Of a stretch of DNA of 49,902 nt, positions 9,172 to 46,156 are shown piece by piece (within the stretch, counting starts at the first letter, position 1; each line of letters begins with the position of its first letter). The notes below the pieces were generated by a model. The model was not told the origin of the DNA. It did not search any database and saw nothing but the letters and a program-made list of their open reading frames with translations. The stretch is from IMG/VR virus record IMGVR_UViG_3300048027_000408, positions 1 through 49,902 of that record; one strand, written 5' to 3'. The position numbers and the translations under genes were made by a program. Origin of the DNA: a virus.

Positions 9172-10098
9172 TCATTTATCTGATTTTTTATCATCAGTTG
9201 GTATATTTCCAAGTGTACTTCCTGGTATATATTTTCTATCTCGTTTGTACCTCTTTCTTAGTGTATATTCGTTATATGCTTCCATTGAAGTCTCTTTCCA
9301 CGGAACATAATAAGGTCCTTTGTTGTTAGGTGAGGGTGTATCATATAATGGTGTCGAGGATACATTTTCATCTGATATTTCTTTCTTTATACTTCTATGT
9401 GTTGGAGTAGGAGTTGGTGTTGGAGTAGGTGTTGGAGTAGGTGTTGGAGTAGGTGTCGGAGTAGGTGTCGGGGTTGGTGTGGGAGTTGGTGTGGGAGTAG
9501 GTGTTGGAGTAGGTGTCGGGGTTGGTGTGGGAGTTGGGGTTGGTGTGGGAGTTGGTGTTGGTGTTGGAGTAGGTGTCGGAGTTGGTGTGGGAGTTGGGGT
9601 TGGTGTGGGAGTAGGTGTTGGAGTTGGGGTTGGTGTGGGAGTTGGAGTTGGGGTTGGTGTGGGAGTTGGAGTTGGGGTTGGTGTGGGAGTTGGAGTTGGT
9701 GTTGGTGTTGGAGTTGGAGTAGGTGTCGGAGTTGGTGTGGGTGTAGGTGTTGGTGTTGGAGTTGGGGTTGGTGTGGGAGTTGGTGTTGGAGTTGGAGTAG
9801 GTTTCGGAGTTGGTGTGGGTGTAGGTGTTGGTGTTGGAGTTGGGGTTGGGGTTGGTGTGGGTGTCGGAGTTGGGGTTGGGGTTGGTGTGGGAGTTGGCGT
9901 AGGAGTTTCTTCGACTATGTTTTCTATAAAATCACCTTCTTCTTGAAACCTATCAGCAAATGGTAAGTTATCTATCCAATTTTTTTTTTCGGTAACTCTT
10001 CTCCGAGAGTCATTCTTCCACCCACCATGATATTGTATGCCAACACAAGTGCGACTGCGACAGGATCGAATACCAAAACAATTACAATAATAAACCAC
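9172..10098 (-). CDS. Thr-Pro repeat protein, probable -1 frameshift extension
   Basis: Open frame of 308 codons whose only usual start codon is a GTG at 10098, deep inside the upstream membrane-protein gene. The first ~34 residues from that GTG are Cys/Arg-rich and look like an out-of-frame reading of the overlapping gene. No ATG, GTG or TTG exists in this frame between there and the Thr-Pro tract. The frame joins the membrane-protein frame by a -1 shift at a run of ten A (9980-9989), so the real product is probably a fusion. Visible parts are [16 protein letters not shown], a 169-residue (TP)n tract with one Lys, and a ~75-residue polar, basic tail ending DDKKSDK. Independent initiation at the GTG, or a homopolymer sequencing error, are the alternatives. 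Confidence 0.6.
9400..9906 (-). repeat. Hexanucleotide minisatellite encoding (Thr-Pro)84
   Basis: 507 bases, about 84 copies of a degenerate six-base unit (coding strand ACNCCN) in perfect frame, with a single Thr-to-Lys change near 9801-9803. Codon choice varies (CCA/CCT/CCC, ACT/ACA/ACC), and longer sub-blocks are repeated, which indicates expansion by recombination or slippage with selection for the peptide. The plus strand is G-rich with many GGG runs. The unit has no spacer, so it is not a CRISPR array. Confidence 0.97.
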
Positions 10099-36386: not shown

Positions 36387-37943
36387 TTATTGTATTCTTT
36401 CGGGATAATCTGTAAATACACCATTTACACCCAACTCACGCAAATATCTAATAGCACGAAGTTCATTCACGGTATATACATATATTTTCATGTTATTTTC
36501 ATTACAATACTCAACGATGGGTGGTGTAATATCTTCTATATACAAATTTACAGAATATATATTTTTTTCAAAGTAGTCTTTCTTAAAATTCTTTATGTCT
36601 CTCAGTATGACATTATCTTCGTGAAATAATTGGGACACATTAATATCGGAATCACTTCGTCTTATCAAATTGACGGTTGCACAACTAAACGAACTTAATA
36701 CAATATCAACATTCCTCCATTGTTTCTTTTTTTTATAATCTCTAACAATAGCAACAATATTAGTTGCAATGCTACTATCCTTAACTTCAATATTAACACC
36801 ACACCTTCCATTTATACAATCAAGTGCTTGTTGTAAAGTAGGAATTCTTTCACAATTAGCATAAATTAATTTATCAAATTCACCTGAATTTAAATCACTC
36901 ATTTTTTTATCTACACCAAACATTCTATTTGCAGTGTAATCGTGAAATACGCACAATTTTCTATCAATATACTGAACATCAAATTCAACCATATCGCAAT
37001 TATATTCAATTGCTTTTTCAAACGCAGAAAGTGTATTTTCCGTACAAGTGCCACTTGCACCACGGTGAGCAATATTAACAAACTTATGCTCTTCTATTTC
37101 CGAAAGAAATTGTTTTATTTTACAAAATACACTACATTCTAATCCTTTGTCGTAAATCGTAAGATGTGTATTTAATTTTGTTGTATATAATTTCTTATAT
37201 GTTGACGCAATCTTCTTGAAAGCACGAACACCACTACTATAAAAAACAGTTGGATCGTTATATTCTTGTATTTGAAACACAGGACATAGAATTCTATCTA
37301 ATATAGTTTTAGAAACATTAGACATTTTACGGAGTTCATTTGTTGCCGACAAATTAATTAATGGTTGATTTAGTTCAGGCATCTCACTATGATTCGTAAT
37401 ACACTCAAGCATTATTTTTTGTAGATTCAATTTCTTACAAATTTTATTGTAAATCATGACACCTGGTAAAAGTTTGTTGAATACATTCTTGACACCAAAC
37501 GGACAGTTAATTAATACCATACCAGAGAATCTAACAGTTTTTAAAGTAGACACATACGCACCCACACACCCACCGAGTGAAAATCCGATGAAGTAAATTT
37601 TATCACACTCCTTGGAAACTTTTTCATATTTACTTTTTACATCATCTACCCAATCATTCCAAGTTACTTTTGTAATATTATCAGAATCGTATCCGTGGCC
37701 ACTCAATTCTACCAAATGAGTTTCCCAACCAAAATTTTCAAAAACAAAATCACTAAGTGGGACCATTTGTTCGTGCTTTGATAAAAAACCATGACACAAA
37801 ATAACCCCAACTTTTTGAGTTGAGGTTTTTTTAATTTTCTTTGATGAAACACTTTTTTGCATTTCAATTTCCATGCACATATCGTTATGCTTGCAACTTA
37901 TTGGATATTTACATTTTTTTTGTGTGCATTTTTGTGACTCCAT
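36387..37943 (-). CDS. Alpha/beta hydrolase fused to GDPD phosphodiesterase
   Basis: 518 residues. A short Cys-rich N-terminus (four Cys in residues 6-22) is followed by an alpha/beta hydrolase (about 40-285): VGVILCHGFLSKHEQMVPLS, LVELSGHGYD, and nucleophile elbow FIGFSLGGCVG near residue 118, like monoacylglycerol lipases. From about residue 290 it is a glycerophosphodiester phosphodiesterase: NIAHRGASGTCTENTLSAFE, MVEFDVQ, FHDYT, VNIEVKD and NGVFTDYPERI. Together the domains could strip acyl chains from phospholipids and then cleave the headgroup to give glycerol-3-phosphate. A sigma70-type promoter ends 8 bases before the ATG. Confidence 0.9.
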   Translation of the reverse strand: MESQKCTQKKCKYPISCKHNDMCMEIEMQKSVSSKKIKKTSTQKVGVILCHGFLSKHEQMVPLSDFVFENFGWETHLVELSGHGYDSDNITKVTWNDWVDDVKSKYEKVSKECDKIYFIGFSLGGCVGAYVSTLKTVRFSGMVLINCPFGVKNVFNKLLPGVMIYNKICKKLNLQKIMLECITNHSEMPELNQPLINLSATNELRKMSNVSKTILDRILCPVFQIQEYNDPTVFYSSGVRAFKKIASTYKKLYTTKLNTHLTIYDKGLECSVFCKIKQFLSEIEEHKFVNIAHRGASGTCTENTLSAFEKAIEYNCDMVEFDVQYIDRKLCVFHDYTANRMFGVDKKMSDLNSGEFDKLIYANCERIPTLQQALDCINGRCGVNIEVKDSSIATNIVAIVRDYKKKKQWRNVDIVLSSFSCATVNLIRRSDSDINVSQLFHEDNVILRDIKNFKKDYFEKNIYSVNLYIEDITPPIVEYCNENNMKIYVYTVNELRAIRYLRELGVNGVFTDYPERIQ

Positions 37944-38317: not shown

Positions 38318-38647
38318 TTATAAAAACTGACTTTTCTTCCAATTTTCTGAGTTTTCAATGTTAGCACAGATGTCTGTATTTTCATGAAAGTTAATTGTAA
38401 GTTCTTCACCGCACTTTACATCTTTGAGTGTAAACATATGCAAATCTTTGCCGACAATTTTATTAATACAATTATTTGTATTGCTATGATTTTGGAAGTT
38501 GCCTATATCGGTTGCTTCACCTGCAACAACTCGTTCGTTTATAAACCCAATCCCTATATGACTTAAACCAATATCAGTATTTGCTTTTATATCGTCGGTG
38601 GCAATTAAACCGTGTCCGTGAATGTTTGATTCACCTAATTTATACAT
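38318..38647 (-). CDS. SET-domain protein
   Basis: 109 residues. SET-family landmarks: SNIHGHGLIATDDIKANTDI (the HGxGLxA opening), GEATDIGNFQNHSNTNNCIN (the xFxNHSxxxNC SAM/lysine site) and VKCGEELTINFHENTD (GEELTxxY-like closing motif, with Phe in place of Tyr). This is a compact SET domain without pre- or post-SET parts. The family methylates protein lysines. The start coincides with the end of the upstream gene (one-base overlap). The Tyr-to-Phe change at the catalytic-region Tyr needs caution about activity. Confidence 0.75.
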   Translation of the reverse strand: MYKLGESNIHGHGLIATDDIKANTDIGLSHIGIGFINERVVAGEATDIGNFQNHSNTNNCINKIVGKDLHMFTLKDVKCGEELTINFHENTDICANIENSENWKKSQFL

Positions 38648-39806: not shown

Positions 39807-39882
<76 letters not shown>

Positions 39883-39937
39883 ACAGAAAATATATGTATA
39901 TACGCATTTATATACATATACATATATATAAAAAATA

Positions 39938-40012
39938 TGGCTGCTCGGGTTGGATTCGAACCAACGACCAAGTGATTAACAGTCACCTGCTCTGCCACTG
40001 AGCTACCAAGCA
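39938..40012 (-). tRNA. tRNA-Asn (GTT)
   Basis: 75 bases, encoded CCA. Acceptor TGCTTGG/CCGAGCA, anticodon loop CTGTTAA (GTT), T-loop GGTTCGAATCC. The first base is U, unusual for Asn tRNAs of bacteria but seen in phages. Confidence 0.92.
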
Positions 40013-40031
40013 ACACAAATTTTAATAAAAT

Positions 40032-40108
40032 TGGTCGGGATAGCAGGATTTGAACCTGCGACCTCTTGCTCCCAAAGCAAGCGCGATACCAGGCTACGCT
40101 ATATCCCG
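40032..40108 (-). tRNA. tRNA-Pro (TGG)
   Basis: 77 bases, encoded CCA. Acceptor CGGGATA/TATCCCG with A73, the C1-G72 pair usual for proline; anticodon loop TTTGGGA (TGG); T-loop GGTTCAAATCC. Confidence 0.95.
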
Positions 40109-40119
40109 ACACAACAAAG

Positions 40120-40195
40120 TGGAGCCACCTGTCGGAATCGAACCGACGACATCCTGATTACAAATCAGGTGCTCTACCAGCTGAGCTAAGGTGGC
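40120..40195 (-). tRNA. tRNA-Thr (TGT)
   Basis: 76 bases, encoded CCA. Acceptor GCCACCT/AGGTGGC, D-arm TAGCTCAG, anticodon loop TTTGTAA (TGT), T-loop GGTTCGATTCC. Confidence 0.95.
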
Positions 40196-40208
40196 AATAA
40201 ATTGATTA

Positions 40209-40283
40209 TGGAGCATCGGACAGGATTCGAACCTGCATGGTAGGGATTTGCAGTCCCTTGCGTCACCATTCCGCCACCGATGC
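40209..40283 (-). tRNA. tRNA-Cys (GCA)
   Basis: 75 bases, encoded CCA with U73, as in cysteine tRNAs. Acceptor GCATCGG/CCGATGC, anticodon stem GGGA/TCCC with loop CTGCAAA (GCA), T-loop GGTTCGAATCC. First tRNA in the transcript. Confidence 0.93.
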
Positions 40284-41528: not shown

Positions 41529-41534
41529 TTGCTG

Positions 41535-41563
41535 TTTACAAACTTTAAAAAAAACTATATTAT
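41535..41563 (+). promoter_or_regulatory. Sigma70-type promoter for histone-like gene
   Basis: TTTACA (41535-41540), 17-base spacer, TATTAT (41558-41563). Unlike several other promoters here it leaves a leader of about 31 bases with an AAAGGA site. Confidence 0.5.
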
Positions 41564-41600
41564 ATTATTATTAATAAAAAAAATTAACCAAAGGAAAATT

Positions 41601-41789
41601 ATGAGTACCTCAAATGAATTGTTTGAACAAATTAAAGAATTGTTTTCTTCTTTTGAAGAAAACCACGAGAAAAGTACCGAAACCGGTGTAAAAGCAGCCG
41701 GAACACGTGCAAGAAAAGCAATTGGTGAGATTAAGAAACTTGCAACCGAATATCGTAAGGCTTCTGTTGCCGAATCCAAATCAAATTAA
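41601..41789 (+). CDS. Histone H1-like protein, Hc1 type
   Basis: 62 residues from the ATG at 41601 with AAAGGA 8 bases upstream. MSTSNELFEQIKELFSSFEE, then NHEKSTETGVKAAGTRARKA, then IGEIKKLATEYRKAS is closely like the short Hc1-family histone-like proteins of Bacteroidota and Chlamydiae, which share the GxKAAGTRxRKxxxxxKxLAxxxR core. It should bind DNA and may act on the compaction of phage or host DNA. It lacks the very Lys-rich tail of chlamydial Hc1. The match is from memory of the family. Confidence 0.62.
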   Translation: MSTSNELFEQIKELFSSFEENHEKSTETGVKAAGTRARKAIGEIKKLATEYRKASVAESKSN

Positions 41790-41801: not shown

Positions 41802-42062
41802 ATGAGCAATATCAAAAAAGAAATAAAAGTAGAAACTACCGTTGAAACAGCAACAAGTAGAAAAAAAGAAAAGTTAGTTGTAAATTGGCCAAGTGGTAAA
41901 TTTAGCATTGCTGATTTAGAAAAGTCACATCCAACCGCCGTACCAATCACTCTAAGATTTAGAGTTAAAAAAGCACTTGAAAGTGGAACTATCAAGTCGG
42001 TTGGAAAAGTAGAAGGTGAAATAGGACGACCGACTTTATTATTTGAAAGAACTTCCAGTTAA
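41802..42062 (+). CDS. Small winged-helix-like protein
   Basis: 86 residues. A charged N-terminal 25 residues is followed by VNWPSGKFSIADLEKSHPTA, VPITLRFRVKKALESGTIKS and VGKVEGEIGRPTLLFERTS, which reads as helix-turn-helix plus a beta-wing, as in small DNA-binding proteins. It follows the histone-like gene after 12 bases, so both may be part of a DNA-packing or transcription-related pair. The assignment is tentative. Confidence 0.6.
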   Translation: MSNIKKEIKVETTVETATSRKKEKLVVNWPSGKFSIADLEKSHPTAVPITLRFRVKKALESGTIKSVGKVEGEIGRPTLLFERTSS

Positions 42063-44503: not shown

Positions 44504-44845
44504 ATGAAATATGATAATACAGCAAAATTCACATTTGATTATACTTGGAGAGATTCTGACGATAATCTTGTTTCAAGAACAAGACACACAACCGCAGATG
44601 AAACTCTCGGAGAAGTATTAAATGCATTTGAATTGTTTTTAAGAGGTGCGGGATTTCATTTTGATGGTCACCTTGAATTTGTTGATGAAAATAATAATCC
44701 AACAAATACAAGTTACGCAGATGTAAATCAACCAGAATTCCAAAATCAGCAATTAGAGTTTGATTTTGTAAAAGAATTATTCACCGACATAGAAAATTTT
44801 GATAAAGATACTGATATAGATTTGGATGACAAAAAAAGCAGTTAA
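44504..44845 (+). CDS. Unknown acidic protein
   Basis: 113 residues. The N-terminal ~70 residues are beta-rich then helical (AKFTFDYTWRDSDDNLVSRT, LGEVLNAFELFLRGAGFHFD). The tail is strongly acidic (FTDIENFDKDTDIDLDDKK). Small proteins of this shape are common in T4-like phages without known function. It overlaps the DUF4326 gene by 20 bases. Confidence 0.7.
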   Translation: MKYDNTAKFTFDYTWRDSDDNLVSRTRHTTADETLGEVLNAFELFLRGAGFHFDGHLEFVDENNNPTNTSYADVNQPEFQNQQLEFDFVKELFTDIENFDKDTDIDLDDKKSS

Positions 44846-45185
44846 TTTATCATTTTATTCTAACTTAGAAACGACAACAAATACAACGCAAGTAGTACAT
44901 TGCAAAAAGTCCGAATATGATGTTTATATTGGAAGGCCTTCTTTGTGGGGTAATCCGTATTCCTCAAAAAAAGAAACTCTTGCCAAGTATCTTGTTGGAA
45001 GCAAATCAGAAGCAATACAAAGTTACGAGGAATATTTAGAATCGTCTCCTAAACTATTAGAAGCACTTAAAGGATTAAAAGGAAAACGATTAGGATGCTG
45101 GTGCAAACCCAAACCGTGTCACGGAGATATTATCGTAAAATTAATAAACAAATATTATTCAGATGAAAATATTATCAGCAGTTAG
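44826..45185 (+). CDS. DUF4326 family protein
   Basis: 119 residues. The family core is clear: VVHCKKSEYDVYIGRPSLWG, NPY, AIQSYEEYL and KGKRLGCWCKPKPCHGDIIV with its conserved Cys-Trp-Cys and Cys-His, suggesting metal or iron-sulfur binding. These proteins are widespread in phages, with no firm function. The start is 20 bases inside the previous gene, and its end overlaps the next gene by 23 bases, so the set from 44504 is likely one operon. Confidence 0.88.
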   Translation: MTKKAVNLSFYSNLETTTNTTQVVHCKKSEYDVYIGRPSLWGNPYSSKKETLAKYLVGSKSEAIQSYEEYLESSPKLLEALKGLKGKRLGCWCKPKPCHGDIIVKLINKYYSDENIISS

Positions 45186-45639
45186 ACATTCAGGAAAAAC
45201 CTATCATAGTAAATCACTTAATTTCGTAGATTGTGATAAAATAATCGGAGAAGCAATTGGTTGGCCATCTCACTTTGACAAAAAAGAGTTTTCCGACAAA
45301 ATATATTCTTCATCTTTAATTGATGAACATGGTGTTGCAGTTCAATTTTCACGTGATTCTTGGAAAGTTCTTGAGAATTATACAAATGAAAATGATGTAA
45401 TTTTAAGCATACCCGAAGTGTGGAGTGCAAGAAGTTTTTGGGAATGGCCAATTAAACCCGATGTTCTTGTAACTATTGACGAAGAACGACATAAGCAAAA
45501 TTTGTTGGAAATAAATCAAAATCATATGTGGGTAACAATTAAATTTTGGAGACATATGCTTGAACACGAAGCAAAAGAAAATAATATTAAGGTTGTCAAT
45601 ACCTTTGAAGATGCAGTATTATATCTAAATGAAAATTAA
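45163..45639 (+). CDS. P-loop kinase-like protein
   Basis: 158 residues. MKILSAVRHSGKTYHSKSLN resembles the start of small phage nucleotide kinases (an S-G-K-T core after a strand, as in T4 gp1), but the full GxxGxGK(S/T) is not present. VDCDKIIGEAIGWPSHFD, VILSIPEVW and VLVTIDEERHKQNL follow in a kinase-like order. It could be a nucleotide or base-like kinase, or a diverged non-enzymatic relative. Placed between DUF4326 and dUTPase, overlapping both, which fits nucleotide metabolism. Confidence 0.6.
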   Translation: MKILSAVRHSGKTYHSKSLNFVDCDKIIGEAIGWPSHFDKKEFSDKIYSSSLIDEHGVAVQFSRDSWKVLENYTNENDVILSIPEVWSARSFWEWPIKPDVLVTIDEERHKQNLLEINQNHMWVTIKFWRHMLEHEAKENNIKVVNTFEDAVLYLNEN

Positions 45640-46156
45640 GATAAAAAATACTGGAACTATTGTACCAAAAAATTTAACGCAATATGATGTCGGTTATGAT
45701 TTAGTTGCATCATCACATCCAGCAATTTCTGGTGAATATGACGAAGAAGCACAGGCCTGGTCACGAATAGATTATATTCAGTACCACACAGATTTATATA
45801 TCGAACCATGTGTAGATGATAAAGTTTATCACACTAATATTTTTCCAAGAAGCAGTATCAGCAATAAAAATCTTATGCTTGCAAATTCAATCGGATTAAT
45901 TGATGCTGGTTATCGTGGAGAGTTACTTATTCGTTTTAAATATATTACTCAACCAGAAGATATTTATGCAAAAATTAAAGGTCATTGTACCCAAGTTCCA
46001 ATGCTAACCAATGTTAATATGGAAAAAATTTACAAAAAAGGTGAACGCATCGCACAACTTGTAATTGCAGAAACGCATAAAGTTGAATTTGAAATCGTAG
46101 AAGAGTTGTCAGAAACGGACCGAGGAAAAGGTGGATTCGGAAGCACAGGTGCTTGA
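45629..46156 (+). CDS. dut: dUTPase (trimeric dUTP pyrophosphatase-like)
   Basis: 175 residues. All five family motifs can be found: YDVGYDLVAS (19-28), PRSSIS (73-78), NSIGLIDAGYRGEL (86-99, with the catalytic Asp and Tyr), GERIAQLV (138-145) and RGKGGFGSTG (165-174). The enzyme cleaves dUTP to dUMP and pyrophosphate, which keeps uracil out of DNA and feeds dTMP synthesis; a dCTPase-type variant is possible. The ~25-residue insert between motifs 1 and 2 is longer than usual. It overlaps the upstream gene by 11 bases and lies 33 bases before the DNA polymerase. Confidence 0.92.
   Translation: MKIKIKNTGTIVPKNLTQYDVGYDLVASSHPAISGEYDEEAQAWSRIDYIQYHTDLYIEPCVDDKVYHTNIFPRSSISNKNLMLANSIGLIDAGYRGELLIRFKYITQPEDIYAKIKGHCTQVPMLTNVNMEKIYKKGERIAQLVIAETHKVEFEIVEELSETDRGKGGFGSTGA

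Follow-up and report, generated by a model that had tools for sequence, protein, structure and literature searches.

Published work on the Hc1 domain, as far as the text available from the sources goes, concerns mostly the tailed chlamydial member of the family. The available part of Pennini 2010 (PMC2904774) states that NUE did not methylate full-length Hc1 and cites Murata 2007 for methylation of Hc1 fragments; the precedent invoked in a preliminary description of the DNA treated here, that a Chlamydia SET protein methylates Hc1, is contested. An Hc1 protein has been published for one lineage of jumbo phages: the accessible text of an Archives of Virology article (PMC12619734; 2025) records the Hc1 domain, PF07432, in moraphages (four complete genomes), with speculation about a role in packaging. 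This was the only article found with PF07432 as the literature term, and no title or abstract opening pointed to work on the bare domain of Bacteroidota or to an Hc1–SET pair in a phage, in searches that had subscription journals mostly outside their scope.

The window considered here is the whole 49,902-nucleotide stretch of the IMG/VR virus record IMGVR_UViG_3300048027_000408. A six-frame search of the record identified a single Hc1 place, an open reading frame of 62 amino acids at 41601-41789 on the plus strand, running from an ATG at 41601 to a TAA at 41787-41789, as the preliminary description had it. The mechanical start of this frame is a TTG at 41529; the starts of its relatives align with the ATG at 41601. 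Its assignment to the Hc1 family was borne out by the profile search that had been proposed as a check (E 5.5e-21, 74.6 bits against a cut-off of 23.5), in which the frame covers positions 1-57 of the 57 in the PF07432 profile, the full domain. The KAAGTRARK core is read at the beginning of predicted helix 2, and both core and length are as in the Bacteroidota chromosomal members. Comparison with six relatives gives a pN/pS of about 0.19-0.30, the synonymous sites being almost saturated. The frame is a real gene under purifying selection, and a chance open reading frame is ruled out. No PHROG convincingly covers the protein (best value 0.045), and a sequence search of the PDB gave weak matches only (best E 0.021).

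Upstream of the gene lie a possible ribosome-binding site, AAGGAAA (41591-41597, plus strand), recognized from the sequence only, and a promoter-like element, TTTACA-17-TATTAT (41535-41563, plus strand). A TTGC/TTTAC...TATA(A/T)T arrangement occupies the same upstream place in a ten-row alignment of the window clade. The sigma70-type promoter proposed earlier is less secure than the gene itself: sigma-70-like sites in the region are not in excess (12 found versus 8.3 +/- 2.9 in shuffles). A search with the exact element returned one site in the window against 0.12 expected, a circular comparison as the pattern was taken from the site itself; the TTGC form gave no site in the window search.

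The AlphaFold2 model, made with 43 phage sequences, is a two-helix hairpin without strands (pLDDT 96.3), the predicted helices being residues 4-28 and 31-61. Charge is divided between them: helix 1 has a net charge of -5 and residues 31-53 of +6, for a total of +1. Foldseek comparison of the model with the PDB gave no match at E 0.001 and generic hairpins only. With NF051889, the NCBIfam HctA equivalog, the protein reaches 24 bits, far below the cut-off of 100; the match is limited to profile positions 7-58 of 121, and the protein ends at residue 62. We take the missing second half of the profile to be the Lys-rich C-terminal tail of HctA. Identity with chlamydial HctA was rejected on this score and on the absence of the second profile half and the tail, and identity with eukaryotic histone H1 was rejected on the predicted helical hairpin, with no winged helix and no Lys-rich tail. 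In the earlier name, 'Hc1-like histone H1 homologue', the Hc1 part stands; for a protein of net charge +1 that has neither the tail nor a predicted winged helix, 'histone H1 homologue' is a family label that says nothing of structure.

Relatives of the protein are common in virus contigs, where 537 of 595 candidate stretches encode one, and this is new, as is the finding that at certain positions most of them have common residues unlike those of host Hc1. The best 80 of the 537 virus-contig hits and the best 80 of at least 416 in genome contigs were kept; the loci are redundant, with a single phage or near-identical ones contributing several, and the counts given here are accordingly not independent. 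Hc1 is also present in 28 of 40 virus records sampled by their family-B DNA polymerase (PolB) instead of by Hc1. (Record-wide searches covered 40 of the 80 PolB loci and 49 of the 80 Hc1 loci, mostly on longer contigs.) Two contigs, L055 (3230-3415 and 5959-6129) and likewise L056, carry two different Hc1 genes each. Among named phages, 22 records match the window protein in tblastn: 15 of Prevotella Lak phages, four of Flavobacterium phage immuto, two of uncultured huge phages and one of a marine single-cell virus. PF07432 is carried by 68 of 118 Bacteroidota genomes and, among 14 control genomes, by Bacteroides ihuae only. The suggestion that Hc1 hints at the host lineage is supported, with Bacteroidota as the lineage indicated; this assignment is based on Hc1 and on the named Hc1-bearing phages, which infect Flavobacterium and Prevotella, and PolB is not its basis.

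Comparison of 48 phage with 80 bacterial rows places the strongest conservation on basic residues. K31, R38, K39 and K46 are invariant in both sets and R52 is present in 47 phage rows (the remaining one has K) and all bacterial rows, with the proviso that the bacterial rows are biased at residues 31-38 because KAAGTRAR was among the search patterns. Elsewhere the sets differ: phage rows have H22 (45/48), G42 (46/48), K45 (46/48), T49 (43/48) and Y51 (45/48), where bacterial rows have Ala (74/80), Leu (79/80), Glu (52/80), Lys (79/80) and Phe (78/80), respectively. The phylogeny with bacterial Hc1 proteins that had been called for, built on these 128 rows (fetched with the window sequence) and 60 columns, gave a mostly separate phage group, 45 phage rows being split from the 80 bacterial and three remaining phage rows, but the support for this split is only 35. 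Lak-C1 Hc1 is nested inside host sequences and LR756500 Hc1 pairs with Salinivenus (support 96); these placements imply that different acquisitions exist, and the starred branches of the tree force at least two changes of phage/host label. Although an alignment of 60 columns has little resolving power, the tree suggests one large phage group together with separate acquisitions. The best explanation is that the gene is of Bacteroidota ancestry and was probably acquired more than once by tailed phages, most of which would carry the phage subfamily.

In the window, 12 bp past the Hc1 stop, begins a gene for a basic protein of 86 amino acids (41802-42062, plus strand; pI 10.0), and the gap is 12-43 bp in the window-clade loci wherever the basic protein was found. 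AlphaFold2 and Foldseek predict a winged helix for it (pLDDT 70.8, residues 1-21 under 50; best hits mostly winged-helix regulators, probability 1.00, E 0.007 at best). Hc1 and this predicted winged-helix protein form a tight bicistron in the window clade. On the same strand a PolB gene, identified by tblastn to that of Microcystis phage Mel-JY01 (46190-48697), lies about 4.4 kb downstream of Hc1, a distance of about 4.4-4.7 kb across the clade, with a dUTPase (45629-46156, plus strand; PF00692, E 4e-17) between the two. The Mel-JY01 enzyme is the closest named-phage PolB (46.7%); tblastn found no Hc1 match in that phage. Also between Hc1 and PolB is a DUF4326 protein (44826-45185; PF14216, E 1.3e-25). 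Elsewhere in the window we noted an open reading frame with a very long Pro-Thr repeat (9172-10098), mirrored by a Gly-Val frame on the opposite strand, and one of 518 amino acids (36387-37943) in which, by eye only, an alpha/beta hydrolase-like half is followed by one resembling a glycerophosphodiester phosphodiesterase.

Other phages place Hc1 in replication or recombination modules as well, and that differently derived copies do so in several phages is new. In relatives whose PolB is 53-54% identical, Hc1 lies between a DnaB-like helicase and ribonucleotide-reductase (RNR) genes, in the order exonuclease, DnaB-like helicase, Hc1, (SET), NrdB, NrdA, thioredoxin-like gene, with variants; the helicase is supported by a DnaB_C match and the exonuclease, Nrd and thioredoxin names were given by eye. 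In three further loci (L041, L042 and L054) Hc1 is 29 bp past a helicase and 1.6 kb before PolB, the order in L054 being gp32-like, UvsX-like, exonuclease, helicase, Hc1, PolB (gp32 and UvsX by eye). A UvsX-like recombinase is directly upstream of Hc1 in LR745206, exonuclease-, gp59- and gp32-like genes are near it in AG-345-O18, and PolA-GroES-GroEL precede it in Flavobacterium phage immuto, where it lies 22 bp past groEL. In LR756500 a dUTPase precedes Hc1 and a PolB piece follows; this Hc1, which on the tree appears separately derived, also reached a replication module. A PolB piece with an intein-splicing match (L305:7592-8362) was seen near the Hc1 of a 462-kb phage.

As a raw count, a helicase, exonuclease, PolB or NrdA gene accompanies Hc1 in 26 of 80 loci, always on the Hc1 strand. 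The other 54 showed none of the sought replication genes in the fetched stretch, some stretches being short, and the stretch scanned in Lak-C1 contained no recognizable replication gene near Hc1. The helicase, exonuclease, NrdA and NrdB profiles each drew on 3-4 sequences from a single clade, and a failure to match them elsewhere therefore counts for little. In L010 Hc1 is beside endolysin and baseplate genes and in L051 it is upstream of the major head protein. Of the loci in which no replication gene was detected, 16 were examined for their neighbours; the 86 proteins belong to scattered families, and the 25 commonest of the 53 families include tail sheath, major head protein, endolysin and DNA methyltransferase.

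We consider that phage Hc1 may be a small protein of nucleoid type that phages employ in connection with the replication of their DNA, a reading to which we give a probability of about one half and in which DNA binding is deduced rather than observed. It is favoured by the PF07432 match, purifying selection, the invariant basic residues, the charge split and the replication-module contexts. The acidic first helix would pack against the basic second helix (K31, R36, R38, K39, K45, K46, R52). Hairpins probably associate with one another, and the basic face of the hairpin would bind DNA. Bound Hc1 might then organize replicating phage DNA or displace host Hc1 from it, presumably during the DNA-replication phase. 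Against this reading are the net charge of only +1, the lack of a Lys-rich tail, the 54 of 80 loci without the sought genes, some of them among structural and lysis genes, the absence of such genes in Lak-C1 and the support of only 35 for the phage/host split. T4-like genomes devote much space to replication, which counts against reading much into the proximity of Hc1 to replication genes.

The same features can be read in other ways. The phage protein could be directed at the host, mixing with or displacing host Hc1 and so compacting or silencing the host nucleoid. A host partner is often present, given PF07432 in over half of the Bacteroidota genomes, and reduced synthesis in Escherichia coli expressing chlamydial Hc1 is cited in the available text of PMC12619734; these effects come from the tailed chlamydial protein, however, and the phage subfamily departs from its host counterparts at H22, G42, K45, T49 and Y51, and we regard a host-directed silencer as unlikely, though credible. 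The near-neutral charge, the conserved residues on both helices, including H22 and Y51, the generic hairpins that are all the PDB comparison yields and, in several phages, an adjoining gene for a helicase, UvsX or RNR would also suit a hairpin that is not a DNA protein but an adaptor, docked onto a component of replication, recombination or RNA polymerase. Contexts and partners vary and the family is homologous to DNA-binding members, which leaves an adaptor a small though real chance of being right. Condensation of DNA in the virion by Hc1 packaged with the genome, as proposed for moraphages in the accessible part of PMC12619734, would fit the L010 and L051 genes among structural and lysis genes; as the window clade, like several other lineages, has replication modules and not head genes around Hc1, and as the protein is nearly neutral, we judge it quite improbable.

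The preliminary description further suggested that a SET protein of the phage and Hc1 make a possible writer/substrate pair. In such a pair the enzyme would methylate Hc1 and tune its DNA binding. The window does contain a SET-domain frame of 109 amino acids (38318-38647, minus strand; PF00856, E 2.5e-9, 37.9 bits against a cut-off of 22.4), but it is about 3 kb upstream of Hc1 on the opposite strand, with an HNH gene and five tRNA genes (Ala, Asn, Pro, Thr and Cys; 39807-40283, minus strand) between. Its last motif reads GEELTINF, with Phe at the expected Tyr in six of six distinct clade sequences; we take this Tyr to be the catalytic residue. It is kept in two other phage rows aligned and in the relatives of the window SET protein in P-SSM7, Kolga and P-RSM6 (two cyanophages and one pelagiphage), records in which tblastn found no Hc1 match; in P-SSM7 the SET gene is two genes past nrdB. 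The window SET gene shows no specific linkage to Hc1, and as a pair the two are weakly supported. A SET-like match was also seen in Marine virus AG-345-P14.

A better case is a second SET type in the 53-54% PolB relatives. Here a full-length SET gene lies past the Hc1 stop and on its strand. The gap, 6-16 bp in one arrangement and about 1.0 kb or 1.5-2.0 kb in others, varies with the position of NrdB and a methyltransferase-like gene; in L271:4984-5570, L261, L272 and L258 the two are 6-8 bp apart between the helicase and RNR genes. Hc1 is found in 69 of 80 loci fetched with this SET type and the C-terminal Tyr in all 15 rows aligned. Yet RNR genes are found in 70 of the 80, other arrangements have SET abutting NrdA (2 bp) or NrdB (4-45 bp) instead of Hc1, and in place of NHS the motif has NT, or NS in a single row. 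Three of the 11 loci without Hc1 end short upstream and eight come from records lacking an Hc1 match (this check covered 14 records). Across the 40 PolB-sampled records, with SET genes of any type counted, 17 have both genes, 11 Hc1 only, four SET only and eight neither (Fisher p 0.17, not significant at any length cut), and SET occurs in four of 49 Hc1-selected records. The evidence is mixed: operon-level proximity of Hc1 and SET is real in one clade, but is common to the RNR genes and indicates no specific link. With Phe in the window clade and the Tyr-keeping relatives in phages without an Hc1 match, methylation of phage Hc1 by a phage SET protein seems very improbable and, on present data, should not be carried forward for the window phage; the Hc1–SET operon of the relatives is the better place for a test. 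Two further SET-type regions were noted, one C-terminal to DUF6065 (L358:4149-5411; PF19541, E 1.7e-70), in a gene that immediately follows PolB and whose record lacks an Hc1 match, and a weak match (L365:4434-5423; E 0.0073) to which a methyltransferase-like domain is apparently fused.

The phage Hc1 gene is genuine, widespread and mildly surprising. A widespread phage subfamily, its genes often beside replication genes, offers a tractable way to learn the role of the bare Hc1 domain and could reveal if a nucleoid protein of the host is replaced or hijacked by phages. For uncultivated phages it may also serve to indicate the host. With the Hc1–SET operon of the relatives, the question of protein methylation during phage infection has a concrete case that can be tested. 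It is conceivable, though we think it probably wrong, that Bacteroidota phages have a chromatin module of their own, an Hc1 subfamily working with the replisome, a methylating SET protein in some clades and a winged-helix partner in the window clade; if true, bacteria would harbour a chromatin system that is encoded by viruses and open to modification.

Set against the known proteins, the window Hc1 has only the family label in common with eukaryotic linker histone H1, which has a winged-helix globular domain and a Lys-rich tail where the window protein has neither. To HctA it aligns over NF051889 positions 7-58, but the Lys-rich tail belongs to the chlamydial protein. The moraphage histone H1-like protein, as the available text of PMC12619734 presents it, shares PF07432, large phages and predicted Bacteroidota hosts; the moraphages are represented by four complete jumbo-phage genomes, whereas the window is from a phage with a T4-type PolB. 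The Bacteroidota chromosomal Hc1 proteins, mostly of 57-58 amino acids, resemble it in length, whole-domain match, KAAGTRARK core, conserved basic residues and lack of a tail, with 38-56% identity among the 80 best bacterial hits. These host genes have no common neighbourhood (the largest neighbour cluster occurs in 13 of 80 loci), whereas the phage Hc1 genes are found in gene clusters.
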